Below are positions 2,797 through 21,185 of a stretch of DNA of 35,021 nt, piece after piece; position 1 is the first letter of the stretch; every line of letters starts with the position of its first letter. The notes beneath the pieces are model-generated. The model was not told the origin of the DNA, did no database searches, and was given only the letters and a program-made list of their open reading frames with translations. Position numbers and translations under genes: made by a program. The stretch comes from Candidatus Gottesmanbacteria bacterium (lineage in GTDB: Bacteria; Patescibacteriota; Microgenomatia; UBA10105; UBA927). The stretch lies in assembly GCA_016214885.1 (NCBI GenBank), contig JACRMP010000001.1:1-35021 (forward strand). The letters are read 5' to 3'.

Positions 2797-2894
2797 TGTC
2801 ATGGACGGGAAATTATGTTTCCCTTCCAACCTCCCTTCCTACCAAGGTGTTGCGACGGCTCTCCGCATATATCACTCCGCCGCAACGGATTTTA
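2797..2894 (-). promoter_or_regulatory. tRNA-leader element copy E1 (two hairpins plus TAAAAT box)
   Basis: Near-identical to E3 over about 50 nt: GGTAGGAAGGGAGGTTGGAAGGGAAAC. Confidence 0.7.
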
Positions 2895-2957
2895 CCCTGT
2901 TCGTATGGGCGATATCAGACACAACCATTATATATGGTGAAGCTGGTTTTGGGAAGG

Positions 2958-3551: not shown

Positions 3552-3593
3552 AGCGCCTGCATTATACCGTCAGGGCAGAAGCTTTGCAAATTG

Positions 3594-4442: not shown

Positions 4443-4489
4443 AATAGTTGAGAGTGTACCATAGCCTTAGTCCTGCCGCAAAGGGATAT

Positions 4490-4921
4490 TTAGTTAGTTA
4501 AATTTAGTTCCAGATCAAGAATTGGGGGTGCCAGTGTGCTGTCCTGGAGGGTAAAAGATTCCAGCGTTGCGGAAAATGAGGCAATTTCCTGTACAAATGC
4601 TCCAAATGCGCTGGTAGATGCGATGCGGGACAAATTTGGCGGAGGGGTCGGTGTTGGCAGAACCGTTGGTGTTGTAGCCACCGGAACTTCCTGTGTAGCG
4701 GGGGCTACACTTCTGGCGTACAACACTCCGGTAATCAGGATAGCCAAACATAAAACGCCACCTATGAGTATATAAAGCGAGTTGTTGCGGGGTGGTTTGG
4801 ACGCCGCCACCGAGAGTGGGGGTGGAGCGGAAGGAGTCACGGTTGCTACGGGTTCAGCCACGGGGGGCGTAGCTACCGGCGGTGAGGTTACAGGCGTTGC
4901 TTGTGGTTGTTGTTCGTCCAT
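4490..4921 (-). CDS. Single-TM protein with Pro-rich N terminus
   Basis: ORF; TM segment SLYILIGGVLCLAILITGVLYA. Confidence 0.65.
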   Translation of the reverse strand: MDEQQPQATPVTSPPVATPPVAEPVATVTPSAPPPLSVAASKPPRNNSLYILIGGVLCLAILITGVLYARSVAPATQEVPVATTPTVLPTPTPPPNLSRIASTSAFGAFVQEIASFSATLESFTLQDSTLAPPILDLELNLTN

Positions 4922-4926
4922 AATGA

Positions 4927-5730: not shown

Positions 5731-5785
5731 CGTATCATCCGGAAAACAGAAGGGTCAATGGGGGCGGGTAACCGTGTTTGTCGTG

Positions 5786-5867
5786 TGCTCCCGAGAGGAA
5801 TCGAACCTCTAAGGGTTACCCCATACGCTCCTAAAGCGTACGCGTCTGCCAATTTCGCCACGGGAGC
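5786..5867 (-). tRNA. tRNA-Leu(TAG), no encoded CCA
   Basis: GCTCCCGTGGCGAAATTGGCAGACGCGTACGCTTTAGGAGCGTA...CGGGAGCA. Confidence 0.92.
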
Positions 5868-5896
5868 AATAGTAACGCTCCCCTATTATACCTGCC

Positions 5897-6445
5897 TTAG
5901 ATGGTTACGGCTAGATGTTCGACACCGGTAGGGTTGAAGTTCTCGATTTTATCTAAGAAAAACCGTACTTTCATGCTCCATGTAGGAGAAGCGGCATACC
6001 GCTTTCCCATCTGTTCGATGGTGATAAGTCCTTTGTCCATGTAGTTATACCGGAGGCCTTCCGAAACCACGGTAATGCCGTCTTTCCAGCCGTCAAAGTG
6101 TCTGCCATCAGATTGTCCGGTATATATAGCCCATCCCCATCCGTTGTAGGAATTAGCCGGCACATGTTTTCCGAAGGTAGATTCAACGCCTGCGATAGCG
6201 GCAACAAGTTTCCAGTCCATCTGGAGACGGTCAGCTTCCGCGACGAAATGTCCGGCCTGGTCAGCTAATGGGGAATTATGTGTTTCAAGGTAAGCTTTGA
6301 GCTTGGTTACCCGTTCATCGATAATGGCATGGGTAACCGGCAGGTGGGCGCTCGCTTCAGCCATGGGAACATTCTGCGCCATGACCGGTTTGGCCATAAG
6401 ACCAAATATAGCAAGCGTGATGATGACTGTTATGGTATTTTTCAT
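5897..6445 (-). CDS. Secreted lysozyme-like (transglycosylase-fold) protein
   Basis: Signal peptide; LVAAIAGVESTFGKHVPANSYNGWGWAIYTG. Confidence 0.75.
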   Translation of the reverse strand: MKNTITVIITLAIFGLMAKPVMAQNVPMAEASAHLPVTHAIIDERVTKLKAYLETHNSPLADQAGHFVAEADRLQMDWKLVAAIAGVESTFGKHVPANSYNGWGWAIYTGQSDGRHFDGWKDGITVVSEGLRYNYMDKGLITIEQMGKRYAASPTWSMKVRFFLDKIENFNPTGVEHLAVTI

Positions 6446-6669
6446 AATCTTTTCTCACATTGATCCCGAGACAATCGGAACAAAGGTGAAAAAAGAGAAT
6501 CTTGCTGCCTCTATTGTGGGAGAGGCTACGGGGAGGACCGGGGTTTATTGGTAGTTAACGGCTACTCAAGCGGGCAGTTTGTAGCCTCGTTTTGAGGCTA
6601 GCTTGAGTATCCATTAATAACCCTAAAGCAAGCTATGGTTTAGGTAGCGAACCTTAGGATCTATGGGAG

Positions 6670-6698
6670 AGTATAGCCTATAATTAGTATGATGTCAA
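6670..6698 (-). promoter_or_regulatory. Sigma70-type promoter TTGACA-N17-TATACT
   Basis: TTGACA at 6693-6698 and TATACT at 6670-6675 on the minus strand. Confidence 0.75.
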
Positions 6699-6844
6699 GT
6701 CCTATGGGATACAATTATATGTGATCAAATCCTATTGAAATAGTCTATTTTAAAATAAATGAGATAGTTATGGGACTCTATATATTCGAAGAAAATCATA
6801 TGCTACCCAAACTTATAGAGAGACAGAGAAATATTTATTCTACG

Positions 6845-7441
6845 TTACTGGATTTCTTCCATGAAGTGGCCGACACAAGTAGCCCAGGAGTTGCCGTTGG
6901 CTACCGATGGAGGTGCATAGATAGCACCGATATCGATAAGGTCAGTAATCCCCCGGGAATAATATTTTTCATTAAGATACCGTGACACCCAGTCGATGGC
7001 ATACAGCCAGTTGGGAAACTTAGCGCCGCTGATTTCTCCCGTTTCCACACTAATACCCCATGCGTTATACGAGTCCTTGCTCGGCATGCGTTTACCCACA
7101 TTGCTCTCACACATCGCTATGGCTGGAACTAAACGGTAGTCTATGCCATAATGCTCTGCCCTATCCACGATATACTCCGCGTATTCGGCAATGGGAGATT
7201 CATGCTGGGTGAGGAATTTGGAAAGAAGCAGCGCTCTCGCATCGCCCGCAAGTACGCTGGCGCCAAGTACCTGCTCCGTGCCGTATGATGACGCAGCGAT
7301 ACGCATCGGAGGTAGTCTGGGGGTTACTGTTTCTGCAGCATTTGCACGATTAGTGAGGGTAACAAGGAGCGATAAATTTACCGCAAGCAAGCTTAACGCC
7401 AACGGAAACCAACACAATACAATCAGTGCTTTTTTGAGCAT
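6845..7441 (-). CDS. Secreted lysozyme-like protein, paralog of 5897..6445
   Basis: LVPAIAMCESNVGKRMPSKDSYNAWGISVETG aligns with the neighbouring gene; VLGAS motif after signal region. Confidence 0.75.
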   Translation of the reverse strand: MLKKALIVLCWFPLALSLLAVNLSLLVTLTNRANAAETVTPRLPPMRIAASSYGTEQVLGASVLAGDARALLLSKFLTQHESPIAEYAEYIVDRAEHYGIDYRLVPAIAMCESNVGKRMPSKDSYNAWGISVETGEISGAKFPNWLYAIDWVSRYLNEKYYSRGITDLIDIGAIYAPPSVANGNSWATCVGHFMEEIQ

Positions 7442-7447
7442 ATAGTC

Positions 7448-7476
7448 ATAGTGACATGAAGGATATTTTATGTCAA
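7448..7476 (-). promoter_or_regulatory. Promoter TTGACA-N17-CACTAT, probably giving a leaderless mRNA
   Basis: TTGACA 7471-7476, CACTAT 7448-7453, ATG at 7441. Confidence 0.6.
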
Positions 7477-7498
7477 CTTGACAAGCGGAATTAGTGCG

Positions 7499-8233
7499 TT
7501 AAATACGGAAAAACGTCCCTACGAAGTATGCGGCAGATGCCGAAATCCCCCCCACCATCAGCGTTTCCAAAATACCCCGTAACGGCTTCCTCCGGGTGAC
7601 CCCTGCGCGGAGTAATCCCAATAGCAACAATGCCATCACGGTAAAGCCTATGGAATACGCAAATACCCCGCCCGTCAGACCGAACATGTATGGTGCCAGC
7701 GGAATAATGCCGAAGATTATAAATGAAAGAAACGTGGATACGGCAACCAGCATGGGCTTTTCATTTTCCGGATTAGTCATTTCCAACTCGTCCTTCATCA
7801 TAAACTCTGTCCAGTACTTGGGATTGGTCCGGTATATGGAAGCGAGAGTTATTGCATCTTTTTCACTGAAGCGTTTGTTCATAAGTATCGTGACTGTTTC
7901 GTTAAATTCTGATTCCGGTTCGTGGGCAATTTCATGGGCTTCTTTTGCTTTTTCTGACCGGTATACATCCTGATCTGCCCGCAATGATAAAAAGCTCCCG
8001 AGTCCCATGGATAAGCCGTCCGCGAGTAAATTGGCAAGACCAAAAAGGAGAACCGAGATTACGGGGATAACACTCGAAGCCGGATCCTGTGCGGCACCTG
8101 CAAATCCTGCGACTACGGCAAATGTGGTAACAATGCCGTCATTGCCTCCGTAGACAATTTCGCGCAGGTATTCTGAAAGCGGTGTCCTTTTATGTTCCTG
8201 TTCCAGATGTCTTTTTAAATCAAACCTCATCAT
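7499..8233 (-). CDS. VIT1/CCC1 family transporter
   Basis: [40 protein letters not shown]-terminal TMs; start at 8233 or 8230 because the longer ORF runs into the tRNA. Confidence 0.88.
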
Positions 8234-8236
8234 ATG

Positions 8237-8308
8237 TGAGCGCAGAAGGATTCGAACCTTCAACCGACAACTTAAGAGGTTGCTGCTCTACCGTTGAGCT
8301 ATGCGCCC
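8237..8308 (-). tRNA. tRNA-Lys(CTT), no encoded CCA
   Basis: GGGCGCATAGCTCAACGGTAGAGCAGCAACCTCTTAAGTTGT...TGCGCTCA. Confidence 0.9.
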
Positions 8309-8405
8309 TATTCATGGGGCAAAACCGAGGTTTTTCCCCAACACTTTTCCTTCAATGAGTTACAACGGGTTCAGATCGAGAGCCACACCGTTGCAACAAA
8401 TTATA
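8309..8405 (-). promoter_or_regulatory. tRNA-leader element copy E2
   Basis: TATAAT-TT-GTTGCAACGG...CCGTTGTAAC...GGGGAAAAACCTCGGTTTTGCCCCATGAAT directly before tRNA-Lys. Confidence 0.7.
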
Positions 8406-8448
8406 TTCTAATCACAATCAATTTTTCTCAATTTTTTAATGCGCCTTG

Positions 8449-8520
8449 CGCCCTTGGAGGGAATCGAACCCCCATCACCTGTTCCGAAGACAGGCACTTT
8501 ATCCGTTAAGCTACAAGGGC
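8449..8520 (-). tRNA. tRNA-Arg(TCG)
   Basis: GCCCTTGTAGCTTAACGGATAAAGTGCCTGTCTTCGGAACAGG...CAAGGGCG. Confidence 0.9.
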
Positions 8521-8523
8521 ACT

Positions 8524-8602
8524 TGGGGTGGCTGAGCGGATTCGAACCGCCGACATTCTGCTCCACAGGCAGACGCTCTAACCAGGCTGAGCTACAGCCA
8601 CC
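8524..8602 (-). tRNA. tRNA-His(GTG) with encoded G-1 and CCA
   Basis: GGTGGCTGTAGCTCAGCCTGGTTAGAGCGTCTGCCTGTGGAGCAGA...AGCCACCCCA. Confidence 0.92.
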
Positions 8603-8664
8603 AATGACAATATTGTACCCCATTTACCGGGGATTTGCATGGAGAGGTAGGGTCATATGAGGTA

Positions 8665-10374
8665 TCAGGGCGCTACGAAAAGCGACATGATAAAGTTGGG
8701 CTGCAGTTTAACGACGGCAAGTATGTCGCCGAAGCTTAAGGCACCGTCTCTGTCAAAATCGAGGGGCAGTGCTTTGGGCATGTCGATTATCGTGGTATCA
8801 GGTTTAAGGACGCTAATGGATTGTGTGGGCAGATAATACGGTACCAGCGTAACGATACGGTATTTATTTCCGGGAACGACGTTACGCAGTTCTCCTACCG
8901 TTGCCGTACCGTTTTTAAACGTAACCCCCTGGATCTTGTGGATGAGCGCCAGGTTGTCGTACACCAGTACCGTGGCGTTGGACGCACTGCTGTCATTGCG
9001 CCAGCCCAGATTGAGACGGACAGTAACCGAGGGAGGAGGAACGAGTGTAAGTGTCCCCGCTTCAACGGTGATGGTATTGCCGTTGTGCAAAAGGTTTAAC
9101 GCATACGCATGGGTACCCGGCGCATTGGGAGTTTCGAGGTGGACGGTGAGTGTGCCAAATTGATGGGGTTCCATGACAGGCAGAGGGTTATATACCATGA
9201 GCATTTTAGCGTCTGACGTGAACGTGAGTGTGTACTCTTTGTTTTGCTCCGTCAGTATTCCCTGCCCCTCGTTTTTAAGGAGTGCTTCCAATACATAGGT
9301 AGATCCGGCAACAAGGGTTTCCGGAATTATTTTATGATCCAGCGTGTACTTTTCGCGCTGGCGGGGTTGGCCTTTTTGTTTAGGTATCTGTTGGTATGTC
9401 TGATACTGGCTGTAAAAATCTTCACTGCCTAATTTTTTCCAGGAGAAGTGATCAAACGGCAGCCCTTGATAACTTAACACAAACGGGGTGACGGCTACGA
9501 TATCGGGATCCGTCCAGACCGATGTTGCGGCAATGGTAAGGTTTGCTCCCACTGCGGCTGAGGAAAGAAGCCCTGAATTTACTACTACACCTTCACTGTG
9601 TACCCAGCCTGTTTCGGTGATAAATACCGGGAGTTTTTTGGTAACACCGAGTTCTTTGAGGCGATTAAGTTCCCACTGGTAGCTCCGGAGAGTCCCCCGT
9701 CCGGTGGCATACGGGGATCCGGAAAATGCAGGGTTAGGATACGAGTGTGATGCCCAGCCGTCCAGATGGTCTGCGAGTTTAGGCTCTGCCTGGAACATGC
9801 GGGATAGAAACACCGATGCATCCAGAGACCGGCCATCTGATGCGGCTGATACATCGAGTCCTGCTGGCAGGACAAAAAAATCTTCGGATGCTTCGTGAAG
9901 CTTCTGAGCGTGACGCACCAACGTGCGGGCGTAGTCCTCGGGATCAAGCGATTTACCCCATTCATTGGCATGATTGGGTTCATTAAATATGCTTACATAA
10001 CGGTTCTCTGTGGGCCAGTTTAGGGAGTTAAGAAACCGAGCCCAGTCAGAAGCAGAATCGTTATATGGTTTCGCCCAGGAATCGCCGTTTATGTGGGTGG
10101 CAATACGGACAATGGGAATTAAATGAAGCGAGCGCATGTCATTTAAAACCCTCTGCCATTTACCCAGATCGCGGTCGTCCTCCTGTATGACCAGTGTGAC
10201 ATATCCCCAGTCCCCGCCTCCGGAGTTTACTAATTTCGCGGCATCACCCAGTCCGTTTGGATCTACGATATGGATACCGTATTTATTGTTCGGCACTGCC
10301 AGCGGGTCGTATTTGGCAAAAACAGGAACCGGCAGCAATAGGAGGATTGCAAGGAATATAAATAGCTTCCGCAT
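8665..10374 (-). CDS. Secreted clan GH-A-like glycoside hydrolase with single dockerin-like C-terminal EF-hand
   Basis: Signal peptide; VSIFNEPNHANEWG, PVFITETGW; C-terminal LPLDFDRDGALSFGDILAVVKL. Confidence 0.75.
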   Translation of the reverse strand: MRKLFIFLAILLLLPVPVFAKYDPLAVPNNKYGIHIVDPNGLGDAAKLVNSGGGDWGYVTLVIQEDDRDLGKWQRVLNDMRSLHLIPIVRIATHINGDSWAKPYNDSASDWARFLNSLNWPTENRYVSIFNEPNHANEWGKSLDPEDYARTLVRHAQKLHEASEDFFVLPAGLDVSAASDGRSLDASVFLSRMFQAEPKLADHLDGWASHSYPNPAFSGSPYATGRGTLRSYQWELNRLKELGVTKKLPVFITETGWVHSEGVVVNSGLLSSAAVGANLTIAATSVWTDPDIVAVTPFVLSYQGLPFDHFSWKKLGSEDFYSQYQTYQQIPKQKGQPRQREKYTLDHKIIPETLVAGSTYVLEALLKNEGQGILTEQNKEYTLTFTSDAKMLMVYNPLPVMEPHQFGTLTVHLETPNAPGTHAYALNLLHNGNTITVEAGTLTLVPPPSVTVRLNLGWRNDSSASNATVLVYDNLALIHKIQGVTFKNGTATVGELRNVVPGNKYRIVTLVPYYLPTQSISVLKPDTTIIDMPKALPLDFDRDGALSFGDILAVVKLQPNFIMSLFVAP

Positions 10375-10375
10375 G

Positions 10376-10447
10376 TACCCCCAGAAGGAATCGGACCTTC
10401 ATCGGATCATTAGAAGTGATCTGCTCTATCCATTGAGCTATAGGGGC
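10376..10447 (-). tRNA. tRNA-Arg(TCT), no encoded CCA
   Basis: GCCCCTATAGCTCAATGGATAGAGCAGATCACTTCTAATGATC...TGGGGGTA. Confidence 0.9.
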
Positions 10448-10478
10448 GAGTATGCAAATTATACTATGGAAGCGTGAT

Positions 10479-12182
10479 TTAATGAAGTTCCGCGCGCCGC
10501 TCTTTGATGTATTGGCTCCAGTTTTCGATGAAGTCGAAAACGACCACCATCGGGGTTTCAACCAAAAAAGTAAATACAATGGCGATAATGTTGTACTCTT
10601 TCCACTTAGCGGCCAGTATGCTGCCGATACGGGCTATAGGTACGGATAGCATGTCCAGCAAAAATTCCCAGACGGGTGTTTTGTCATCAACCGAAAGCTC
10701 CTTGGATTTGTTGCGTATTCCCACCGCGGCAAAAAAGGTAAGAGCTATGGTGAAAGTGTCAAAGATAACCGACGTGATCGGCAGCTTGGCGATATAGAAG
10801 AGGTAGCCTACCCCACCCAGAACCCCGAACATCATAAATAGGTAGAGCAAGCCGACTACTAACATAAAGGCAGAGTTGCGGCGCTTCTTCATATATACGT
10901 CATAGAGTTTTTTCTTTTCGTCGTCATACACAAACTGGTAGACGGTGGAAAGCACCTGGGTTACGTTTTCTTCTGCAGGAGGTCTGATTATCGAAACAAG
11001 CGCAAACATAACTGCAGTGGGAACTACAAAGTCTACTATGGCAGCAAACAGGTTAAATCCTTCGTAAAATATTTTCGCCAGCGGGATCTCGACAATGTAA
11101 AAAGTGACCCAGTTGGATAAGAAAACGGACAAAGTGGAAAATATAGCAAGGCGCATGAGCCGGCTTTTAAGGGAAAGGAACCGTTTGTTATACGCTTGGG
11201 TAATTTCTGCCGTGAGTTTTATCTTATCGGAAAATATCGCCGCTACTTTTTGCGGGTTTTCTTTGTGCGTATCCAGCACGTCACCTAACAGCATGTATAC
11301 GGTGTCAATGCGTTCGCAAATGGAATAGAGCTGACGGCTTACGGCATGTTCGAGCACCTTGTCTTTTTCCGTCCAGATGGTGGGTATATCGGTCGCAAGT
11401 TTTTCCAACAGTTCGGGTGAAGGGTTAAGCCAATCAGCGTAACTAAATTTCATCAACTGGGCGAGAATATAATTGTCGTCCAGGTCGAATAAGGTGCGGC
11501 TTGCAGCGATAAATACGTGGGTTTTTTTCTCATCGGCAGACATACTGTCTTCCGGTCTGATACGGATTCTCTCCGTGAGCGTTTGTGTCATGGTTTCCAG
11601 TAACACCCTTTCTTTGACCGGATTGGTGAGGATTTCTTCGATATCGACGGCGGCTAACTCAATAATGAAATAGGTAAAGTTTATCTGACGCTTAATGGGA
11701 AGCAGTTCATTGGTGGGAAATTTTGCATGCTTGAGTACATACAGCGCTTTCTTGAGGACTGTTTCTACTAGTATGACCTGTTCCTGAGGAATTTCATCGT
11801 TTTGGAGGTGTCCGCCGCGGATAAGGTCTGCAGTTACTGAGTACGCCACCCGGTAGGTATCGATATCTGATTTAAGGGTTACGCCGGAAAGTTTGGGAAA
11901 GAGGATCCGTTTGAGTGCGCGCTCAATAGCGCTTCTCCGTAGCACATTATCCTCTTTCCAATCGATAACTTTCCGTACCTGCTCGTAGAATTTCGCGATA
12001 TGCGAGGCGATTTCGTCGACATGTATGGGGGTTACGGGTTTTTTAGCGGACTGGATACCGTCCGTATAAGTGCTCAGCATGTGATCCATTTCCTTTGACA
12101 ACGGATGGATATCAGTGCTGTCCTCTGAAGGTTCCGGTGAATGTTCTGTGTGTTGCGCGTGCGGATCGGTTGTTTCTTGCAT
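10479..12182 (-). CDS. Large multi-TM protein of unknown function
   Basis: Soluble N-terminal region plus C-terminal TMs; start at MQETTDPH because the upstream part overlaps tRNA-Gly. Confidence 0.75.
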   Translation of the reverse strand: MQETTDPHAQHTEHSPEPSEDSTDIHPLSKEMDHMLSTYTDGIQSAKKPVTPIHVDEIASHIAKFYEQVRKVIDWKEDNVLRRSAIERALKRILFPKLSGVTLKSDIDTYRVAYSVTADLIRGGHLQNDEIPQEQVILVETVLKKALYVLKHAKFPTNELLPIKRQINFTYFIIELAAVDIEEILTNPVKERVLLETMTQTLTERIRIRPEDSMSADEKKTHVFIAASRTLFDLDDNYILAQLMKFSYADWLNPSPELLEKLATDIPTIWTEKDKVLEHAVSRQLYSICERIDTVYMLLGDVLDTHKENPQKVAAIFSDKIKLTAEITQAYNKRFLSLKSRLMRLAIFSTLSVFLSNWVTFYIVEIPLAKIFYEGFNLFAAIVDFVVPTAVMFALVSIIRPPAEENVTQVLSTVYQFVYDDEKKKLYDVYMKKRRNSAFMLVVGLLYLFMMFGVLGGVGYLFYIAKLPITSVIFDTFTIALTFFAAVGIRNKSKELSVDDKTPVWEFLLDMLSVPIARIGSILAAKWKEYNIIAIVFTFLVETPMVVVFDFIENWSQYIKERRAELH

Positions 12183-12203
12183 ACGTATTGCCCAAGGTTT
12201 AAC

Positions 12204-12277
12204 TGGAGCGGATGAAGGGAATCGAACCCTCGTCACCAGTTTGGAAAACTGGCGCTCTACCATTGAGCTACACCCGC
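12204..12277 (-). tRNA. tRNA-Gly(TCC), CCA encoded
   Basis: GCGGGTGTAGCTCAATGGTAGAGCGCCAGTTTTCCAAACTGG...CATCCGCTCCA. Confidence 0.92.
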
Positions 12278-12362
12278 CTCGCGTCGACGAACTCCGTAAA
12301 TAACGACGGACCCGTTACGCACTACGATATTATATCGTGTTTTCCGCACCAATGCACACTCT

Positions 12363-12803
12363 TCATTTGTCCATAAATTGGACCATGTCTCCGATAGTTA
12401 TCTGATGCTCACGTACAAACCCGGCGTTAACTTCCAGAACTTTGTCTACCGGAACCTTAGGCTTAATCATTGCAGGTTGCTGATCGCCGACGGGAGGCGG
12501 AACGTTTAGCGTGATGTCTGCAATCCGGTTGCCGTCTATCCAGATAAAATCCAGAGGAAACAGCATACCGCGCATCCAAAAATTATAGTGTTCTTTATGA
12601 TCATACGGAAACAGCATGCCTGAAGAATTTCCCAGAATTTTGCGTCCTCCCAGGCCTTTTTGTTTCTGAGCTTCGGTGACCGCGACTTCGGTTACGATAA
12701 CGGTGTCGCGGATTTTTACTTTAGATACGAGGGGGTGAGAGCGATAGTACAGTAACAATGTGAGAAACGGTAAAATAATAAGCACCAGAAGCCAGGGTTT
12801 CAT
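12363..12803 (-). CDS. DUF192 family secreted/anchored protein
   Basis: KQKGLGGRKILGNSSGMLFPYDHKEHYNFWMRGMLFPLDFIWID. Confidence 0.88.
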   Translation of the reverse strand: MKPWLLVLIILPFLTLLLYYRSHPLVSKVKIRDTVIVTEVAVTEAQKQKGLGGRKILGNSSGMLFPYDHKEHYNFWMRGMLFPLDFIWIDGNRIADITLNVPPPVGDQQPAMIKPKVPVDKVLEVNAGFVREHQITIGDMVQFMDK

Positions 12804-12807
12804 ATCG

Positions 12808-13716
12808 TTATTTACTCCGTGTCAGGCAAAAACGCACCAATGCCGTAAGTTCGCCTTTGCGCGTTTCACTGATGGGCAGCAAGCCAATTTCATGATCACA
12901 GTGCTCGAGCAGCGATACTTTGAGATCATTGAGTTCGTCGCTGTCCAATAAGGTCGCCAATGTTTGTTTCTCATTCCGCTGATCGCTGCCGGTAGGTTTA
13001 CCGGTGATTGTGCTGTCGCCTGCTACACTCAGTTCATCATCGCGGATTTGAAACAGTAATCCCATAGATTCTCCTAGCCGGTCAAGGACATCTAAATTGT
13101 TTTTCGTAGCTCCCGCGAGTATTGCACCTACTGACATGGATAGCGAAAAGGTATACCGGGCGGTTTTATACCGGTACAGCGACATAACGTCCTCTTTGGA
13201 CATGGCAGTACTTTTGCCGCTCATCATGTCCTGCATCTGAGCAATAATAACCGGCTGTAGCTCCCGAGAAACCACATCATTGAGCCGGACATCAGTTAAC
13301 AATTCCTGTGCCATAAAGAAGCAGAGATCGCCGATATTTATGGCCTGGCTTATACCGGTGTGTACGTCACCGGAACTGACACGGTACTGTTCCCACATGC
13401 TGGGACCCCCTCTTCTCAGGGTATCACGGTCCATAACGTCATCGTGGATAAGAAAGCCTGAATGATAGAGCTCAAGAGCAGACGCCGCTTTGTATATATC
13501 GGGAGATATATTTTTTTGAAAAAGTGAGTATATATACACCGCTAAGCTTCCGCGAGTAGTTTTACCCGATGTAACAAACGGAATAAGCCGGTCGATTACA
13601 TCGCCGCCAAAGCTGTTTATTTGGACAAGTTTAGATTTCTTGTTTGTTAAATACGTAACCAGATAACTGTCTATACCCTTTTTATGCTTAAGAATTTCGG
13701 TGAGTGAGTCTGTCAT
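12808..13716 (-). CDS. Polyprenyl (geranylgeranyl-type) diphosphate synthase
   Basis: FLIHDDVMDRDTLRRGGPSMW first Asp-rich motif; LLFQIRDDELSVAGD...GKPTGSD second. Confidence 0.88.
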   Translation of the reverse strand: MTDSLTEILKHKKGIDSYLVTYLTNKKSKLVQINSFGGDVIDRLIPFVTSGKTTRGSLAVYIYSLFQKNISPDIYKAASALELYHSGFLIHDDVMDRDTLRRGGPSMWEQYRVSSGDVHTGISQAINIGDLCFFMAQELLTDVRLNDVVSRELQPVIIAQMQDMMSGKSTAMSKEDVMSLYRYKTARYTFSLSMSVGAILAGATKNNLDVLDRLGESMGLLFQIRDDELSVAGDSTITGKPTGSDQRNEKQTLATLLDSDELNDLKVSLLEHCDHEIGLLPISETRKGELTALVRFCLTRSK

Positions 13717-13753
13717 AGGATTATTGTACTGTATTCTGTTAAAATAGCGTCAT

Positions 13754-13829
13754 CGGGGTGTGGCTCAATTGGTAGAGTGCGCGCTTTGGGAGCGTGAGGT
13801 TCCGAGTTCGAGTCTCGGCACCCCGACCA
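13754..13829 (+). tRNA. tRNA-Pro(TGG), CCA encoded
   Basis: CGGGGTGTGGCTCAATTGGTAGAGTGCGCGCTTTGGGAGCGTG...CACCCCGACCA. Confidence 0.93.
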
Positions 13830-13940
13830 ACTTTATTCTCCAACAAACTTTCCCCTGACCTGTTCCGAGTTCCCCGTGACTACACGGGATCGTTGGCAGT
13901 AATTACTCGACGCGAAGAAGCGTCTCGCAAACTGCCTCCG

Positions 13941-13963
13941 TCGAGTCTCGGCACCCCGACCAA
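13941..13963 (+). repeat. Exact 23-bp duplication of the tRNA-Pro 3' end
   Basis: TCGAGTCTCGGCACCCCGACCAA at 13808-13830 and again at 13941-13963. Confidence 0.95.
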
Positions 13964-13973
13964 AAGCTTTTGT

Positions 13974-14720
13974 CTATTTTTTCCCTCCTTTTTTCCACGG
14001 TGCGTGTTCAATAAGCGGACTGTATATGTCGTCAGCAAGCGGTATATGCAATTCGTCAGTTTCATTTTTTGTCGGGGCGTCTGCTGCGAATCTGATGAAC
14101 GGAACATCAGTGATAAGAACAAGCGGCGTTTGTTCATTTCCTTCTCCCATCACCAATACTGCCGCGGCGGCTAGCCCATCCGCTACATTTGCTTTGGTGA
14201 CTTTAAGTTTTCTTCCGAACAGATCCGGGGTATCTATATAGTTATTGAGTGCAGAGAATCCCGCATACGCAAGCGACACTCCAGTTGTCCCCAGGTGGAG
14301 CGGAGTTGTTTTGCTGTCCGAAATAAGCACACCAACATCATTGATGTTAAACCGCTTTGCTAAATAATCTCGCACTTCCCTGGCCGTTGCTTCCGGGTTT
14401 CTCGGCCAAAGCACATAATAGCCGTTACCATTTGATTCATCTATCCCAGCGGTCGGGATAAGCGTATTTCTGGTAACGGTAAGCGATATATCATATTTAC
14501 TTTTTTCTGGGGGAATGTAGAGCTCTGATTCCTGTTCAATAAGTTTTTGTTTGTCTATGGATCCGATTGCCACCACATTGCCTTCGCAAAGGGATATGAT
14601 TTTTGAGGTTATTACCAGCACCGACTGCTCAGGTATACCGGTGAGTACTCTGTCAAGAACGGCGATGAGTGTTTGGGCATTTGCCGTAATCTTTTCAGTT
14701 CTTATAGGTGTTATGTTCAT
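13974..14720 (-). CDS. CofE-like / FolC2-like gamma-glutamyl ligase
   Basis: SVLVITSKIISLCEGN, GIDESNGNGYYVLWPRNP, DVGVLISDSKTTPLHLGTTG. Confidence 0.85.
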   Translation of the reverse strand: MNITPIRTEKITANAQTLIAVLDRVLTGIPEQSVLVITSKIISLCEGNVVAIGSIDKQKLIEQESELYIPPEKSKYDISLTVTRNTLIPTAGIDESNGNGYYVLWPRNPEATAREVRDYLAKRFNINDVGVLISDSKTTPLHLGTTGVSLAYAGFSALNNYIDTPDLFGRKLKVTKANVADGLAAAAVLVMGEGNEQTPLVLITDVPFIRFAADAPTKNETDELHIPLADDIYSPLIEHAPWKKGGKK

Positions 14721-15217
14721 GTTAACGGTACTGATTCGACACGATTAAGTTTTTCTAAATATTTATTATATGGCTTAGAAATGATTTCAGTATTTTCCAA
14801 ATAAAATTCTTTTTCCATTGATTTATGCTGATTAGGAAGGTAGGTTAAAATAATAGAGTTAAGAAAATCATTTATAATATACAAGCCGATAACCCCGTTT
14901 TTATAACCATATTCCGAGTAATTCATTTTTATAATGTTTACTTTCTCATACCCTTTTGCTTTGAGCCACGCAAGCCCTGCTGCTTTATTTGCTACTAACA
15001 CCTGTTCTCCATTGACAAATTTCCCTCCCGTTTCTTTAAACACATGTATTTCCCATCTATCCGGGTATTCTACTAGTTTTTCTACATCATTACCTTGATG
15101 TACGCCATAGTAATGAGTGGAAACTATATCTTTTATTTTCTTTGCACCTTTTTGATTGAGTAAGTTTAATACGGTGCTAAATGAATCGACGCGGTATTTC
15201 TTTTCCTGTAGCTTCAT
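14717..15217 (-). CDS. CYTH-like / class IV adenylate cyclase-like protein
   Basis: N-terminal EKKYRVDSFSTVLNLLNQKGAKK, YYGVHQGNDVEKL; overlaps neighbours by 4 nt. Confidence 0.6.
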   Translation of the reverse strand: MKLQEKKYRVDSFSTVLNLLNQKGAKKIKDIVSTHYYGVHQGNDVEKLVEYPDRWEIHVFKETGGKFVNGEQVLVANKAAGLAWLKAKGYEKVNIIKMNYSEYGYKNGVIGLYIINDFLNSIILTYLPNQHKSMEKEFYLENTEIISKPYNKYLEKLNRVESVPLT

Positions 15218-15741
15218 ATGACTTTATAATGCATGAGCAGCGTACCTTTGTTATTTAGCTTGGTAACGCTGATAAGTTGCAAGGATACATCTACATCTAC
15301 GGGGGCAAATAAATTGTTGCCGCTTCCGAAAAATTTTGGTTCGATGGTCAAGTAACATTCATTGATAAGCTTACCCGCAAGAAAGGAGCGGTTGAGCTGG
15401 CTTCCTCCGACCAGAAGCATGCTCTCGTATCCTTCCGCTGTCATGCGCTGGGTGAGCGCCTCAGGCGTTTCCGCGGTAAACTCCAGCTGCCCCTGTACTG
15501 TCTCCGTCTGAAAATCTTCCGGAGTACTCGTCATTACAATGCGCCGTAGCGTTGAAGAAGGCGTAATGGTTTTTTTTATCGCGGTGTAGGTGTTCTTGCC
15601 CATGACCAGCAAATGGTGCTCGGATTTAAGTTTGGCAAAGTGCGCCAGATCTTCAGGGGACGACCATCCGTGCACCTTGGGCTCATGCCACATGGTAGTT
15701 CTGCCGTCAGCGGTGGTAACCATAACAAGAATTATTTTCAT
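15214..15741 (-). CDS. Dihydrofolate reductase / RibD C-terminal family
   Basis: MKIILVMVTTADGRTT, LLVMGKNTYTAI, SMLLVGGSQLNRSFL. Confidence 0.82.
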   Translation of the reverse strand: MKIILVMVTTADGRTTMWHEPKVHGWSSPEDLAHFAKLKSEHHLLVMGKNTYTAIKKTITPSSTLRRIVMTSTPEDFQTETVQGQLEFTAETPEALTQRMTAEGYESMLLVGGSQLNRSFLAGKLINECYLTIEPKFFGSGNNLFAPVDVDVSLQLISVTKLNNKGTLLMHYKVI

Positions 15742-16064
15742 AATGCGGGAAACGTGTATAGTGATTTTGATAAATCCACTTGTGTGTCGGTAAGAAAAAC
15801 AACACCTTCCAGCTCGAGTTTACGGAGTTGTTCTTTGGGTCCCCCGAATGCATATCCGGGAGCCAATCTCCCGTCAGAAAAAACAACACGGTGGCATGGG
15901 GTCAGATCACTGTCGGGATTTGCATGCAGCGCGTGCCCGATTCTCCGCGCGTCCTTAGTATGGAGCGCATTGGCAATGGCTCCGTAGGTAGTCACCTTAC
16001 CCGCGGGAACGGATCTGACCAGCGCGTAAATCTGCTGAAAAAATGAATCGGGTGTATCAGTCAT
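15738..16064 (-). CDS. MGMT-family (alkyltransferase-like) protein
   Basis: VPAGKVTTYGAIANAL, LTPCHRVVFSDGRL. Confidence 0.88.
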   Translation of the reverse strand: MTDTPDSFFQQIYALVRSVPAGKVTTYGAIANALHTKDARRIGHALHANPDSDLTPCHRVVFSDGRLAPGYAFGGPKEQLRKLELEGVVFLTDTQVDLSKSLYTFPAL

Positions 16065-16075
16065 AAATATACTCC

Positions 16076-16747
16076 TTATGTTAAATGGGCAGATAGCAAA
16101 AACGAAATAACCACATGGATAAGTGAGGATTTAAGTGCCGGGGTGGCTTTGCCCGGGATTTCAGCAGTGAATGACCGCTTGCAGCGGTTTTCTTCATACA
16201 ACCATCGGCTGGAAAAGCCGGTTGTTTCCCCCGTTTTTTCAAATCCCAATGAAACATATCCTTTTTCGACATACAGGTTTAGGTGCTCATCGTCGACATC
16301 ATCAACGCCGGTATATAATTTCGCATCCGTTTTGTGGATAGCAGCACGGTACGCTACCAGTTCCTCATCGGTCATTTGTTCAGTGTCATACAGATAAAAG
16401 CCCATGGTCCGGTCAGGATCTTCATGGATATCAACACATAAATCAAACCGGTAATTACCAAGCAGCGACATAACGGCTTTTGCTTCAGGATCTGTTGAGT
16501 TTTTGGTAAACTGGCGGTTGATGTCATTGCTGTAGGCATTTTTTCTTGTCTTCGCTTTAACTGCACTTGGGCTTACCCGCGGGATGTAGAGAAAGGCAGG
16601 AAGGCTGGGTGCATGCTGGGTAAGATATGCCTCCAGGAGATTGCCGGATTCATATTCGTCGCCATGCATTCCGGAAAGTAAAAGAATACGCGGATCCTCA
16701 CCATGGGTGAAGTACGTAATCACATCTTGGTGTCTGTGTTCGTCCAT
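16076..16747 (-). CDS. Succinylglutamate desuccinylase/aspartoacylase (M14-like) family
   Basis: LLSGMHGDEYESGN, NDINRQF, LCVDIHEDPD. Confidence 0.78.
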   Translation of the reverse strand: MDEHRHQDVITYFTHGEDPRILLLSGMHGDEYESGNLLEAYLTQHAPSLPAFLYIPRVSPSAVKAKTRKNAYSNDINRQFTKNSTDPEAKAVMSLLGNYRFDLCVDIHEDPDRTMGFYLYDTEQMTDEELVAYRAAIHKTDAKLYTGVDDVDDEHLNLYVEKGYVSLGFEKTGETTGFSSRWLYEENRCKRSFTAEIPGKATPALKSSLIHVVISFLLSAHLT

Positions 16748-16749
16748 CG

Positions 16750-16839
16750 TGGTGCCGAGGGCGGGGGTCGAACCCGCACGAAGTGTTTAGCTCCGCGGGC
16801 TCTTAAGGCCCGTGTGTCTGCCAATTCCACCACCTCGGC
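16750..16839 (-). tRNA. tRNA-Leu(TAA), CCA encoded
   Basis: GCCGAGGTGGTGGAATTGGCAGACACACGGGCCTTAAGAGCCCG...CCTCGGCACCA. Confidence 0.93.
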
Positions 16840-16852
16840 TAAGTATTTAAGA

Positions 16853-16909
16853 TTAGCCAACCGCCTCGCGTCGACCGCGTATTCGCGAGTCGAGGCGGGC
16901 CTCGGCTAA
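16853..16909. repeat. Palindromic dispersed repeat, copy B
   Basis: TTAGCC/GGCTAA outer and CCGCCTCG/CGAGGCGG inner inverted arms. Confidence 0.8.
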
Positions 16910-16937
16910 TAGTCATGTATTAAAATGTACAAGGTTA

Positions 16938-17960
16938 TTATACCGCATTTTCCGGGCGCATAGCCTTGGGAAGCGTACTACTAACTTTTTTGAGCTTTGC
17001 GATATAGAAGCCTTCCATAAGCTTGCTTGGATTAATACGTGCAGTAAGCTTGAGCGTCGGATCGTATGTTTTGCCGTCCCATGACGGCAAAATAGGATCA
17101 TCAAACGGCAACAAATCCGTCTGTATAGTCTCAAGCACAACATTCCCCTTTTCTTTTTTGAGGAGCCAGTCGATAATTTCTTCGTTTTCTTCCGGGCTTA
17201 AGGTGCATGTTGAATAGACGATGGTGCCCCCTGGCTTGGTGGCGCTTACTGCAGAGCGCAAAATCCAGCGCTGAAGGCGTGATAACTCGCGTACTTTTTT
17301 AACCGACCAGTCCTGGTAGCTTTTGGGGTCTGCAACGGAAAATCTACCTTCCATGCTGCAAGGAACATCAACAAGAGTTCTGTCATAGTATTCAGGACTT
17401 TTTTGCCAGAGCGCCCGGGCGTCTTCATGGGTGATGCGCGCAATGGTCGCTCCCTGCAGTTTGAGGTTTGCTTCCAGCCGGTAAATGCGAACACGGCTGG
17501 CATCATTTGCCGTGATTTGTCCTTTGTTTTCCATCATTGCCGCTATTTGCGTGGTTTTGCTTCCGGGAGCTGCCGCAATATCCAGCACCTTTTCACCCGG
17601 TCTGGGGTTGAGGACGAGCGGAGGGAGCATGCTCGATAAGCTTTGGACATACAACTGGCCTGCGTTATACGCTTCGGTCTCTGTGAGTTCGCGGAGGCTT
17701 TTGTTTTCTAAAATAAATGCATCGGGGTACCAATCAACATTTTTTATGTTAAATCCCTGCTTATTAAGCGATTCCCTGAGTGTTGCAGCAGTAGTTTTTA
17801 GTGTATTTACACGGAAAGTAGTCGGACGGTCAGAAGAGAATGCCGTCATTACCCTGTCAAAAGCGGCCGGCTCCAGTAGTTTTTTAAGCCGGTCAATAAA
17901 TTCTATTGGTAATACACTGGGAGCTGGAGAATCCATATTCTGATTGTACCTCTGCGCCAT
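16938..17960 (-). CDS. RsmB/NOP2/Sun family RNA m5C methyltransferase
   Basis: VLDIAAAPGSKTTQIA, VDVPCSMEGRF, VYSTCTLSPEENEEII. Confidence 0.9.
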   Translation of the reverse strand: MAQRYNQNMDSPAPSVLPIEFIDRLKKLLEPAAFDRVMTAFSSDRPTTFRVNTLKTTAATLRESLNKQGFNIKNVDWYPDAFILENKSLRELTETEAYNAGQLYVQSLSSMLPPLVLNPRPGEKVLDIAAAPGSKTTQIAAMMENKGQITANDASRVRIYRLEANLKLQGATIARITHEDARALWQKSPEYYDRTLVDVPCSMEGRFSVADPKSYQDWSVKKVRELSRLQRWILRSAVSATKPGGTIVYSTCTLSPEENEEIIDWLLKKEKGNVVLETIQTDLLPFDDPILPSWDGKTYDPTLKLTARINPSKLMEGFYIAKLKKVSSTLPKAMRPENAV

Positions 17961-17999
17961 ACCGCTTTACTATGGTATAATTTTTGATACGCCCAGACC

Positions 18000-18034
18000 C
18001 GCCTCGACTCGCGAAGCTCGTCGACGCGAGGCAG
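18000..18034. repeat. Palindromic dispersed repeat, copy A
   Basis: CGCCTCGACTCGCGAAGCTCGTCGACGCGAGGC; same core as copy B. Confidence 0.75.
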
Positions 18035-18044
18035 GTGGTGAAAC

Positions 18045-18302
18045 ATGTTTTTTGTATATATACTAGTCAGCACTAGATATTCAAAAACATACGTTGGAAT
18101 AACGGACAACTTGATCAGAAGGCTTAATGAACACAATAAGGGTCAACACATATATACAAAAAGATATATGCCCTGGAAAATATTGTTTTCAAACGAATTC
18201 GATACAAGGGTAACTGCGCGGAAGAAAGAGAAATACTTGAAAAGCGCTGCGGGGCGACGATGGATTAAGAAGGTGTTTTTTAGTACATTGCCCAGATGGT
18301 GA
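18045..18302 (+). CDS. Single-domain GIY-YIG family protein
   Basis: FVYILVSTRYSKTYVGITDNLIRRLNEHN...PWKILFSNEF..A.KKEKYLKSAAGRRWI. Confidence 0.92.
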   Translation: MFFVYILVSTRYSKTYVGITDNLIRRLNEHNKGQHIYTKRYMPWKILFSNEFDTRVTARKKEKYLKSAAGRRWIKKVFFSTLPRW

Positions 18303-18379
18303 AACTGGTATACACGCTAGCTTCAGGAGCTAGTGACCTTAAATAAGTCGTGGAGGTTCGAGTCCTCTTCTGGGCACCA
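18290..18379 (+). tRNA. tRNA-Leu(CAG), CCA encoded
   Basis: GCCCAGATGGTGAAACTGGTATACACGCTAGCTTCAGGAGCTAG...TCTGGGCACCA. Confidence 0.93.
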
Positions 18380-18465
18380 GCTATCGAAGACAGGTAACCT
18401 GGTAATAAAAACGCAGCTTCATAATTCCTCATTGTAAGTTTTCTCATAAAAAACAATTTGTCGGT

Positions 18466-18786
18466 GTGATAATGTATATGCATATGATACAAATTCACTC
18501 TAATTCCTTAGGAAACAAACGTTTTCATGCGATTTTACCCATCGTGGTATTTATTTTTGGGATAGCGTTTATCGGACTTATGTTTGTTGCATTATCCGGG
18601 CCACTCTATAGCGCACCAAAGGCATCCGGACCTACTTCATGTCCTGCAGGTATGAAAATTAAAACATTTGCCAACCGGAAATGTACTACTAACAAAAAGG
18701 GACAGCGTACATGCAAAACTACTCAAGATACTACCTGCGTAGTGAATCAATTTTACAATCCGAATAAAACATTGCAGAATCAGTAA
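18466..18786 (+). CDS. Small secreted/anchored Cys-containing protein
   Basis: TM followed by Cys-containing segment SCPAGMKIKTFANRKCTTNKKGQRTCKTTQDTTC. Confidence 0.6.
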   Translation: MIMYMHMIQIHSNSLGNKRFHAILPIVVFIFGIAFIGLMFVALSGPLYSAPKASGPTSCPAGMKIKTFANRKCTTNKKGQRTCKTTQDTTCVVNQFYNPNKTLQNQ

Positions 18787-18832
18787 TGAGCGGGAAACCT
18801 CCGGGGAAATGCGTGTTCACATAAAGCGAGTG

Positions 18833-18914
18833 TGCGGACGAGAGGACTTGAACCTCCAAGCCTTACGGCACAGCCTCCTCAAGACTGCGTGTCTACCAGT
18901 TTCACCACGTCCGC
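18833..18914 (-). tRNA. tRNA-Leu(GAG), no encoded CCA
   Basis: GCGGACGTGGTGAAACTGGTAGACACGCAGTCTTGAGGAGGCTG...CGTCCGCA. Confidence 0.92.
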
Positions 18915-18964
18915 GAAAACAGGACTTAATTATAGCATCAAATCAGGAAGAGGTGAACGCGTGG

Positions 18965-19423
18965 TTATGAGGCTAAGGATTTTCCTAAACCGGCGGCCCA
19001 GGTTTTTACATTGTCTTCATTTTCCCGCAGCGAGTAGTAGCGGTCGACGCGGAGCGAGGTAACTATGGGAGTAACCGATATTTTTTTGAGCATTTCTTCC
19101 ATAATGTCGATTGCTCCGCAGTAGTGCGGGTACGATGTGTCTCCCAGTCCCATAAGGGCGACTTTCTTGTCTTTCAAATCCTCCGAAGTCACCGTTTCGA
19201 GAAATTTGCGGACTTCCGGCAGAGGTTGGCCGTCTTTGCCCTGATCTTCCCAGCTCGGAGATGCGACAATAAGTGCGCCGTATGATGCTAATTTTTCCCG
19301 TGATGCTTCTTCGACACCAATAACATCCACTTCATGTCCTGCTGTGCGCAGTTCGGCAGCGGCAAGTTCCGCGGCAGTCATGGTGGATCCTGACAACGTT
19401 CCGTAGACAAGGAGGCATTTCAT
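18965..19423 (-). CDS. Flavodoxin
   Basis: LLVYGTLSGSTMTAAE, LIVASPSWEDQGKDGQP, GLGDTSYPHYCGA. Confidence 0.9.
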   Translation of the reverse strand: MKCLLVYGTLSGSTMTAAELAAAELRTAGHEVDVIGVEEASREKLASYGALIVASPSWEDQGKDGQPLPEVRKFLETVTSEDLKDKKVALMGLGDTSYPHYCGAIDIMEEMLKKISVTPIVTSLRVDRYYSLRENEDNVKTWAAGLGKSLAS

Positions 19424-19442
19424 ATCTGTTATCTATTATACA

Positions 19443-20483
19443 TTAGTGCAACGAGTTGTGAACAATCTGCACCACAAAATCATCGAGTGTCATGCCGTGT
19501 GCCTTGATACTTGCCGTCATGGCGTCACGCGGATCCGGGTCAAAGCCTGCGTTGGCATTGGCTTCCAGGAAATACCACATATTGTCTTTGGTATTAAAGC
19601 GCAAATCAAAACGGGCGTAGTCGCGTAATCCCAGCGCATAAAAGGCGCGGATGGAGTCTTTCCGGATACCCGTGTCTATCCCCGATTTAAGTTCCTTGGG
19701 AGGGGCGACAAAGTGACAGCTCTGGTAGGCTGCTGTATTCTTTGTCCATTTTTCGTCAAAGCCATAGATGTTCCATTTATTTTTCCCTTTGCTGCGGAAT
19801 GCGATTTCGGCTATAGGCAGTGCGTAGGTTTTCGTTGGTGTTTCCAGCACTGTTACCTGGAGTTCTTTGCCTGCGATAAATTCTTCTGCAAGGAGCGCCT
19901 GCTTGTGGTCAACCCGCATACGCTGGATTATTTTTTTAAATTGTTCATAGGTGGTGGCGATGGATTTATTGGTGATACCGATACTGCAGTGCTCGAACGC
20001 CGGTTTAACGATGATAGGAAACTTGCCCGGCAATAATTTCCGGCTTATGCGGTCATGGAGCCGGATAACCGTGTATTTGGGGGTTGGCAGTGAGTTTTTT
20101 TCGAACAGCCTTTTGGTGCGAAGTTTGTTATTGGATATTTGTATCGCTTTAAAAGAAGAACCGGAATAAGGTATATGCAGGCGGCTAAGAATTTTTGCGA
20201 TTTCTACTTCCATTTTTTTACTATCGACAAGGTTGAAAACAAAATCAGCTTTCAGATTTTTTAGTTCGGATAAATCATCCGGCTTAACTTTGATAATCTG
20301 CACCCTATATCCCCGTTTCTGAAAAAGCGTTTTCATGTAGCGCACAATATCATCTGTCTGATTATCGACCAATGCATGTTCGGCGCTGAAATATGCGTCA
20401 GTTATTTCTTTGGGGACGTAATGATACAGGATCGCAATTGTCCTGGTTTTTTTGGCGCGGATTATTTTCTTTTTTTGTTTCAT
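19443..20483 (-). CDS. ATP-grasp, D-Ala-D-Ala ligase-like protein
   Basis: FPIIVKPAFEHCSIGIT, EEFIAGKELQVTVLE, WYFLEANANAGFDP; start at MKQKKK since the longer ORF overlaps tRNA-Val. Confidence 0.85.
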   Translation of the reverse strand: MKQKKKIIRAKKTRTIAILYHYVPKEITDAYFSAEHALVDNQTDDIVRYMKTLFQKRGYRVQIIKVKPDDLSELKNLKADFVFNLVDSKKMEVEIAKILSRLHIPYSGSSFKAIQISNNKLRTKRLFEKNSLPTPKYTVIRLHDRISRKLLPGKFPIIVKPAFEHCSIGITNKSIATTYEQFKKIIQRMRVDHKQALLAEEFIAGKELQVTVLETPTKTYALPIAEIAFRSKGKNKWNIYGFDEKWTKNTAAYQSCHFVAPPKELKSGIDTGIRKDSIRAFYALGLRDYARFDLRFNTKDNMWYFLEANANAGFDPDPRDAMTASIKAHGMTLDDFVVQIVHNSLH

Positions 20484-20581
20484 ACGATCATGTATAACAA
20501 CAACAAATTTTATATGATTTGTCAAATATACCACAACCATTGTGGCATCATACGCATATTTGCTAAAATAGCTGTATTGAG

Positions 20582-20654
20582 GGACGATTAGCTCAACGGC
20601 TAGAGCACTTCGTTTACATCGAAGGGGTTGGGGGTTCGAATCCCTCATCGTCCA
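20582..20654 (+). tRNA. tRNA-Val(TAC)
   Basis: GGACGATTAGCTCAACGGCTAGAGCACTTCGTTTACATCGAAG...ATCGTCCA. Confidence 0.93.
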
Positions 20655-20689
20655 CAGATGGGGAAAACTCTCGGTTTTGCCCCAAAAGA

Positions 20690-20762
20690 GCAGAGGTAGC
20701 CAAGGTGGTCAAGGCGCCTGTCTGAAAAACAGGTTATGCGTGTTCGACTCACGCCCTCTGCA
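20690..20762 (+). tRNA. tRNA-Phe(GAA)
   Basis: GCAGAGGTAGCCAAGGTGGTCAAGGCGCCTGTCTGAAAAACAGG...CCTCTGCA. Confidence 0.9.
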
Positions 20763-20805
20763 CAAAGAGGTTCCTATTAGATGTAGACGGAGCTTATGAA
20801 TAAGC

Positions 20806-20904
20806 TATAATACCGTCGCAAGGGTGTGCGTCATGTCGAGACCCCTTGCGACACTCTGGTAGGAAGGGAGGTTGGAAGGGAAACGTAGTTTCCCCGTCCA
20901 TGAA
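20806..20904 (+). promoter_or_regulatory. tRNA-leader element copy E3
   Basis: TATAAT then perfect 10-bp stem GTCGCAAGGG/CCCTTGCGAC, then GGGAAAC-GTA-GTTTCCC hairpin. Confidence 0.75.
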
Positions 20905-20976
20905 GCGGCGTTAGTTCACCGGTAGAATGTCTCCTTGCCAAGGAGAAGGTAACGGGTTCAATTCCCGTACGCCGCT
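20905..20976 (+). tRNA. tRNA-Gly(GCC)
   Basis: GCGGCGTTAGTTCACCGGTAGAATGTCTCCTTGCCAAGGAGA...ACGCCGCT. Confidence 0.92.
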
Positions 20977-21009
20977 CAGATAATGAAGAAATAGTGTGAA
21001 TAAATAAGG

Positions 21010-21106
21010 TATAATATTGTCGCGCAGGTGTGAGCTACGATCTATTCCCTTCGCGACTCTTTGTAGGAAAAGCGTTGGGGAAAAACCCTCGGTTTTGCCC
21101 CATGAA
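21010..21106 (+). promoter_or_regulatory. tRNA-leader element copy E4
   Basis: TATAAT, GTCGCG/CGCGAC stem, TAGGAAAAGCGTT, GGGG.AAAAC..GTTTT.CCCC hairpin, CATGAA. Confidence 0.75.
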
Positions 21107-21178
21107 TGCGGGGTCGTTCAATGGTAGGACACCTGCCTTTGGAGCAGGGTACTCTTGGTTCGAATCCAAGCCCCGCAG
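21107..21178 (+). tRNA. tRNA-Gln(TTG)
   Basis: TGCGGGGTCGTTCAATGGTAGGACACCTGCCTTTGGAGCAGG...CCCCGCAG. Confidence 0.92.
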
Positions 21179-21185
21179 CATATAT

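Follow-up and report, generated by a model that had tools for sequence, protein, structure and literature searches.

The window, that is, the whole stretch of 35,021 nucleotides analysed here, belongs to a Candidatus Gottesmanbacteria genome (G000) and holds 15 tRNA genes within ~18.5 kb (2720-21179), on both strands. Four intact copies of one element, a folded RNA leader of ~90 bases, lie in the window 4-8 nt upstream of tRNA-Gly(gcc), tRNA-Gln(ttg), tRNA-Val(cac) and tRNA-Lys(ctt). The relevant features are the following, P1 and P3 being the first and the second hairpin of the element:

20806..20811, + strand: TATAAT box of the Gly copy, 3 nt (ACC) before hairpin 1; either a promoter -10 or an RNA/DNA part of the element
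20815..20852, + strand: P1 hairpin of the tRNA-Gly(gcc) copy, from direct reading, folding and covariation
20862..20873, + strand: purine-rich conserved core of the Gly copy, GGAAGGGAGGTT (family consensus AGGGAAAAUCGUU)
20873..20900, + strand: P3 hairpin of the Gly copy, with outer TGGA/TCCA, inner GGGAAAC/GTTTCCC and a GTA loop
20905..20977, + strand: tRNA-Gly(gcc), starting 4 nt past P3
21010..21015, + strand: TATAAT box of the Gln copy, from direct reading
21019..21105, + strand: intact Gln copy, before tRNA-Gln(ttg) at 21107-21179
8312..8397, - strand: intact Lys copy, before tRNA-Lys(ctt) at 8236-8308; TATAAT at 8405-8400
2799..2886, - strand: intact Val copy, before tRNA-Val(cac) at 2720-2796; TAAAAT at 2894-2889
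20656..20689, + strand: possible P3-only remnant, TGGGGAAAACTCTCGGTTTTGCCCCA, without core and without P1, between tRNA-Val(tac) and tRNA-Phe, from direct reading

In the Gly copy, P1 is formed by pairing of GTCGCAAGGG (20815-20824) with CCCTTGCGAC (20843-20852) across an 18-nt loop. Directly 3' of P1 lies ACTCTGGTAGGAAGGGAGGTTGG, followed by GGGAAAC-GTA-GTTTCCC (20878-20894), and this second stem is extended outwards by 4 bp, UGGA/UCCA (20873-20876 with 20897-20900). After P3 comes TGAA, which adjoins tRNA-Gly(gcc) at 20905; the whole element runs from 20815 to 20903. A preliminary description of this DNA had read the same order of parts (TATAAT, 3 nt, a 10-bp stem with an 18-nt loop, a second hairpin, the tRNA), and all of them were found in place, as were the three further copies, on both strands, that it had assigned to tRNA-Gln(ttg), tRNA-Lys(ctt) and tRNA-Val(cac). 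Its remark that most other tRNAs here have short leaders also holds, the distance from the -10 box to the tRNA being usually 8-17 nt.

All four window copies have a P1 stem of 10 bp, with one mismatch in the Gln copy, and the differences among copies are compensatory. Their P3 stem has 11 bp, some of them mismatched in its interior. The folding z score was -3.7 for the Gly copy and weaker (-1.6 to -2.3) for the other copies in the window.

Covariation and the conserved core

A covariance model (R1) was built from the four window copies and refined twice (R2, R3). In this genome R1 gave 10 matches at E ≤ 0.001 and 15 at E ≤ 1, and in relatives it found matches in 10 of 38 genomes; further copies, anticipated in the preliminary description, are thus present in both. 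With R3, ~18 full or partial matches were detected in this genome. Ten of these are copies of the intact type, each immediately in front of a different tRNA (Gly-gcc, Gln-ttg, Val-cac, Lys-ctt, Thr-tgt, Thr-cgt, Arg-ccg, Val-gac, Pro-cgg and Ala-ggc), while the genome has 51 tRNA matches altogether. Such placement goes beyond chance because a copy placed at random would fall in sense orientation within 10 nt upstream of a tRNA about 2 times in 10,000, as a rough estimate.

When 68 copies were examined for covariation, double changes were seen in 10/10 pairs of P1, with 95% of cells paired, and in 10/11 pairs of P3, with 91% paired. Over the whole model, changes on both sides affected 24/25 pairs in 68 copies and 21/25 in 31 copies. 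The covariation score with 68 copies was 0.407, compared with 0.147 for shuffled and at most 0.134 for slid structures, the alignments having been fitted to the model's own structure, which introduces some bias in its favour. None of 500 shuffles reached the observed score, and slid structures attained at most about one third of it with 68 copies and under half with 31. Compensatory changes in P1 are also found at orthologous sites, for instance those of Gln and Thr(tgt). Covariation of both hairpins far beyond shuffled and slid controls, across divergent genomes, bears out the structure initially proposed. Altogether, the element is clearly a genuine new structured RNA family whose shape is kept by selection. 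A third helix, P2, was discarded as a family feature: it is weak and fits the window copies, yet only 36% of it is paired across the family.

Between P1 and P3 lies a purine-rich, near-invariant core, (A)GGRAAAA-UCGUU, whose 3' end can also be read as UCGUY. Conservation is highest in this single-stranded core, (A)GGRAAAA-UCGUY, which precedes the P3 stem GGGAAAAAACC/GGUUUUGUCCC, and near-invariance of this kind suggests a binding partner or a tertiary contact. In many copies the core reads like the 5' arm of P3, down to matching A-to-G changes, which would make a switch possible. For the core paired instead to the P3 3' arm, pairing reached 92.2% versus 88.4% in shuffled controls, a modest difference. 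In a permutation of the direct repeat, 68 of 5000 permutations did as well when all distinct types were used and 542 of 5000 with one entry per P3 type; a cruder score for the same pairing gave no signal, and the rule is broken by several copies with an unrelated P3 stem. Hence, alternative pairing of the core with the P3 3' arm is suggestive only.

A second type of copy lacks P1, and a TATNATCC-like box runs straight into the next hairpin. Copies of this type occur in tandem, ~25 nt before tRNA-Pro, or antisense just past stop codons; the neighbours of the antisense copies, which were named by reading the sequence, are presumably era and a gene for a penicillin-binding protein.

Promoter boxes, placement and distribution

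The box that precedes hairpin 1 in the window is a common trait of the element: a TATAAT-like sequence is found 0-4 nt upstream of P1 in 25 of 39 copies from Gottesmanbacteria. In 29 of the 39, another -10-like box is situated more distally, 8-75 nt upstream, compared with 18 expected from shuffled upstream sequence; in the Val(cac) copy, for example, a distal TATAAT is located ~40 nt further upstream of the TAAAAT box. Motifs with a promoter-like look, AAGCC at about -33 (-32 to -35) and GGGT at about -10 (-9 to -12), recur upstream of a subset of copies. Where a tRNA lacks the element, a recognisable -10 nearly always lies 8 nt or more ahead of its start; with that spacing, the proximal box would start the RNA inside P1. 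However, pairs 1-3 of P1 covary, and full-length P1 is therefore presumably transcribed, either from the distal promoter or from an upstream tRNA. The earlier proposal that transcription starts at hairpin 1 is hence no more than a possibility: the adjacent box would suit it, the distal box and a normal spacing that lands inside P1 would not.

Most copies adjoin tRNAs of many kinds, and the gap between P3 and the tRNA is 4-8 nt in nearly all of them, with the leader in sense orientation. In copies associated with mRNAs, P3 ends directly before the SD/AUG of rplL, rpsT, HU, atpE, atpD, DUF5679, an RRM protein or a nucleotidyltransferase, the downstream proteins having been checked with Pfam. Two Saccharibacteria carry the element inside their 23S rRNA genes, where it occupies the 3' edge of an insertion; the 23S site differs between the two. 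In one such locus (L098, 1960-6902) the 23S rRNA gene spans ~4.9 kb, with insertions of ~2 kb in total that include a small ORF with an SD, upstream of the element. Other placements are rarer: one copy is antisense to the adjoining tRNA-Thr (L031/L086), an orthologous pair (L019, L071) is flanked by convergent genes, and L019, L030 and L071 are stand-alone copies without a downstream sense gene.

The preliminary description had viewed the element as a conserved 5' leader with a role in tRNA maturation, stability or expression. The leader itself stands, as it is repeated, covarying, present in CPR relatives and fixed at 4-8 nt from the tRNA. A role restricted to tRNAs does not, since the element also adjoins the SD/AUG of mRNAs and sits in 23S intervening sequences, so that tRNA maturation alone probably cannot account for it. 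The idea that the odd leaders reflect a loss of RNase P was likewise rejected: RNase P RNA was found, although it scores below the gathering cut-off in this genus.

The taxonomic range was examined by scanning GTDB r220 (one genome per species) with an exact 30-nt core + P3 pattern. All 44 stretches detected belong to Patescibacteria: Gottesman-, Roizman- and Levybacteria, other Microgenomates, two Saccharibacteria and one Paceibacterota. The same core pattern had no match in the viral contigs of IMG/VR, nor were matches found in plasmids or phages, the phage and plasmid searches being weak tests made with single copies by blastn. Distribution is patchy: among 39 other genomes of the class, the refined model finds the element in 5. 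A phylum-wide sample of 389 genomes yielded 4 positives, an underestimate caused by stricter filters. In two species of the same genus no copy reached the model threshold, and one of the same-genus genomes below threshold (G001) still shows a recognisable copy at Val(cac). A tRNA cluster shared by sister species carries the element in one and lacks it in another. Same-genus species that lack it at orthologous tRNAs have flanks too diverged for an exact alignment of empty and filled sites, and one spacer contains a remnant.

The history of the copies was approached with a tree of 39 tRNA-linked copies. Labels of tRNA identity required 28 changes versus 31.4 when shuffled (5 of 500 shuffles as low), and genome labels required 19 versus 25.0 (0 of 500 as low). 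Both label sets cluster, so inheritance at a given site and copying within genomes have both taken place. In genome G006, the copies at His and Lys share a block from TATAATTC to CCCAAGA and are little alike outside it. Decayed remnants were detected at Asp in G000, in the Arg-Lys spacer of G002 and at Val in G001.

Working leader or mobile repeat

At the gathering cut-off, Rfam 15 identified only tRNA in the window and only 23S and 5S rRNA in eight related loci, and when the copies were scanned permissively, what matched the element stayed below threshold and at the level of chance. The open-access literature yielded no description of it either. The original statement that no described family has such an architecture is thus corroborated, and we know of no described bacterial covarying leader common to tRNA genes, ribosomal-protein, HU and ATP-synthase mRNAs, and 23S insertions. 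The newness of the family rests on the missing Rfam and literature matches together with this mixed placement.

We give about half of our confidence to the reading that the element may be a cis-acting structured leader RNA family of Patescibacteria that would fold by itself, insulate or control the adjacent transcript and possibly spread as a cassette. The unit would comprise an AT-rich -10-like box, the 10-bp P1, the near-invariant purine-rich core and P3, in this order, with P3 ending 4-8 nt before a functional RNA (a tRNA 5' end, an SD/AUG or a 23S segment). Such a leader would be co-transcribed, would fold alone and, we infer, would act as an insulator that keeps upstream RNA from mispairing with the product. 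Core and P3 would probably be the docking site of a trans factor, be it RNA polymerase, a nuclease or a protein that binds RNA, and this factor would set how much of the downstream RNA is made or where it begins; copies would be added to new tRNA genes within a genome. In 48 copies, leader-tRNA cross-pairing averaged 1.2 expected pairs with native leaders versus 7.2 with shuffled leaders; this low predicted value fits an insulating leader, and would hold for any, or at least many, stable hairpin leaders. A search for trans factor candidates found none: NusG is single-copy among 39 genomes, and Y1 transposases do not track the element. A more specific version, which we deem unlikely, would have a portable leader on stable-RNA, translation and energy genes, in which either the core would rival the P3 5' arm for one 3' strand, as a switch, or the leader would serve as an aptamer for the transcription machinery, giving tRNAs, mRNAs and rRNA a common control handle.

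Several traits of the element admit another explanation. Patchy distribution, copies antisense to or downstream of genes, and the likeness of copies from the same genome (0/500 shuffles), as a mobile repeat would show, speak against a working leader. The main rival, which we hold to be possible but doubtful, is a selfish MITE/REP-like palindromic repeat that would spread in transcribed, tolerant places such as tRNA leaders, 5' UTRs, 23S intervening sequences and sites past stop codons; the TATAAT would either belong to the element or be the site that it targets, and the hairpins would be kept for transposition as ssDNA or RNA. ERIC, Correia/NEMIS, Rickettsia palindromic elements and REP/BIME are hairpin-forming repeats of ~100 bp, multi-copy and patchy, found in transcribed non-coding places, and some have promoter-like boxes. 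The element resembles them in size, hairpins, copy number, patchiness and sites, and variable copy number, tandem and truncated copies, the decayed remnants and the restricted block common to the G006 His and Lys copies agree with such an origin. Against it stand the strict sense orientation and fixed spacing to tRNA or SD, the maintenance at orthologous tRNAs across species with compensatory P1 changes, and the lack of visible terminal inverted repeats. No associated transposase was recognised either. A REP/RAYT or IS200/IS605-type repeat with its own Y1 (HUH) transposase was rejected because Y1_Tnp is missing from G000 despite its many copies, and because copy numbers in 39 genomes do not go with Y1_Tnp. 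Many CPR relatives do encode Y1-transposase proteins (PF01797) of ~200-270 aa, RAYT-like and up to 13 per genome, some of them without copies of the element. We favour a working leader over a selfish repeat; the two are not exclusive, and the tree supports inheritance as well as copying.

Other rivals fare worse. A DNA-level promoter module, in which the -10-like box, a GC-rich start region and an inverted repeat would control initiation and the RNA hairpin would be incidental, might account for the box next to P1 and for the recurrence of GGGT and AAGCC in a subset. We find it quite unlikely, as P1 pairs covary instead of holding a consensus operator, strong conservation reaches P3, ~50 nt downstream, the second type of copy has no P1, and many copies have another promoter upstream. 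It is very improbable that RNase P frees the ~90-nt leader from tRNA transcripts to act elsewhere as a trans-acting sRNA: the near-invariant core, the several paralogues, the stand-alone copies and the presence of RNase P RNA would suit it, but RNase P would not free the mRNA and 23S copies, and the placement in cis is tightly fixed. A T-box-like switch that senses tRNAs or amino acids has its site before tRNA genes in its favour and is nonetheless scarcely credible. No T-box match was found in Rfam, the downstream tRNAs span many amino acids, neither core nor loops show a visible dependence on the tRNA that follows, no specifier-like part is seen to change with the anticodon, and the mRNAs are not tied to one amino acid. 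T-boxes are tRNA-related leaders too, but they precede aminoacyl-tRNA synthetase and amino-acid genes, whereas the element precedes tRNAs and shows no specifier loop or T-box bulge.

The working leader has likenesses to other RNA systems. With riboswitches and ribosomal-protein leaders it shares covariation and a conserved RNA structure directly upstream of the SD; it differs in its presence on tRNAs, unrelated mRNAs and 23S intervening sequences, and in that no terminator, SD-sequestering platform or Rfam match was recognised. Processive antitermination RNAs (HK022 put, boxB/boxA rRNA leaders, LoaP/RfaH targets) also place leader hairpins on stable-RNA and ribosomal genes, and put, a leader RNA that lets RNA polymerase pass through terminators, has two hairpins like the element. 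Unlike them, the element is found on only some stable-RNA genes and has no Rfam match. Antitermination of the RfaH/LoaP type was rejected, as no specialised NusG paralogue was found in 39 genomes: there is at most one NusG per genome, detected in 36/39.

Patescibacteria (CPR) are a large lineage of ultra-small bacteria with few known regulators, whose gene regulation is almost undescribed. If functional, the element would be a common control or maturation handle for their translation machinery. If selfish, it would fall among the small palindromic repeats, as one with an unusually exact taste for transcript leaders. The covariance model, the set boundaries and the same-genus species with and without copies make both outcomes directly testable.

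Sequences adjoining individual copies

A GC-rich hairpin repeat (e.g. CCTGCCTCGCTGTCAAGGCGGGC) is inserted in the P3 loop or the core of L018, L040 (G004), L150 and L152, and several G004 copies are so affected. At tRNA-Thr(tgt) of G002 and G004 (L032, L033), a tRNA-Thr 5' half, duplicated or interrupted, separates the element from the full tRNA-Thr, an arrangement that looks like a tRNA insertion or an intron; in L211, the copy is succeeded by a comparable disrupted stretch that resembles tRNA-Met. In two species (L081, L085), a conserved two-hairpin sequence, ACGCGCCGGGTCCTC...GGACTCGGC, lies 3' of the element; it has no Rfam match and is possibly another unnamed RNA. Lastly, DUF5679 genes preceded by the element occur in two distantly related genomes (L026, L095).
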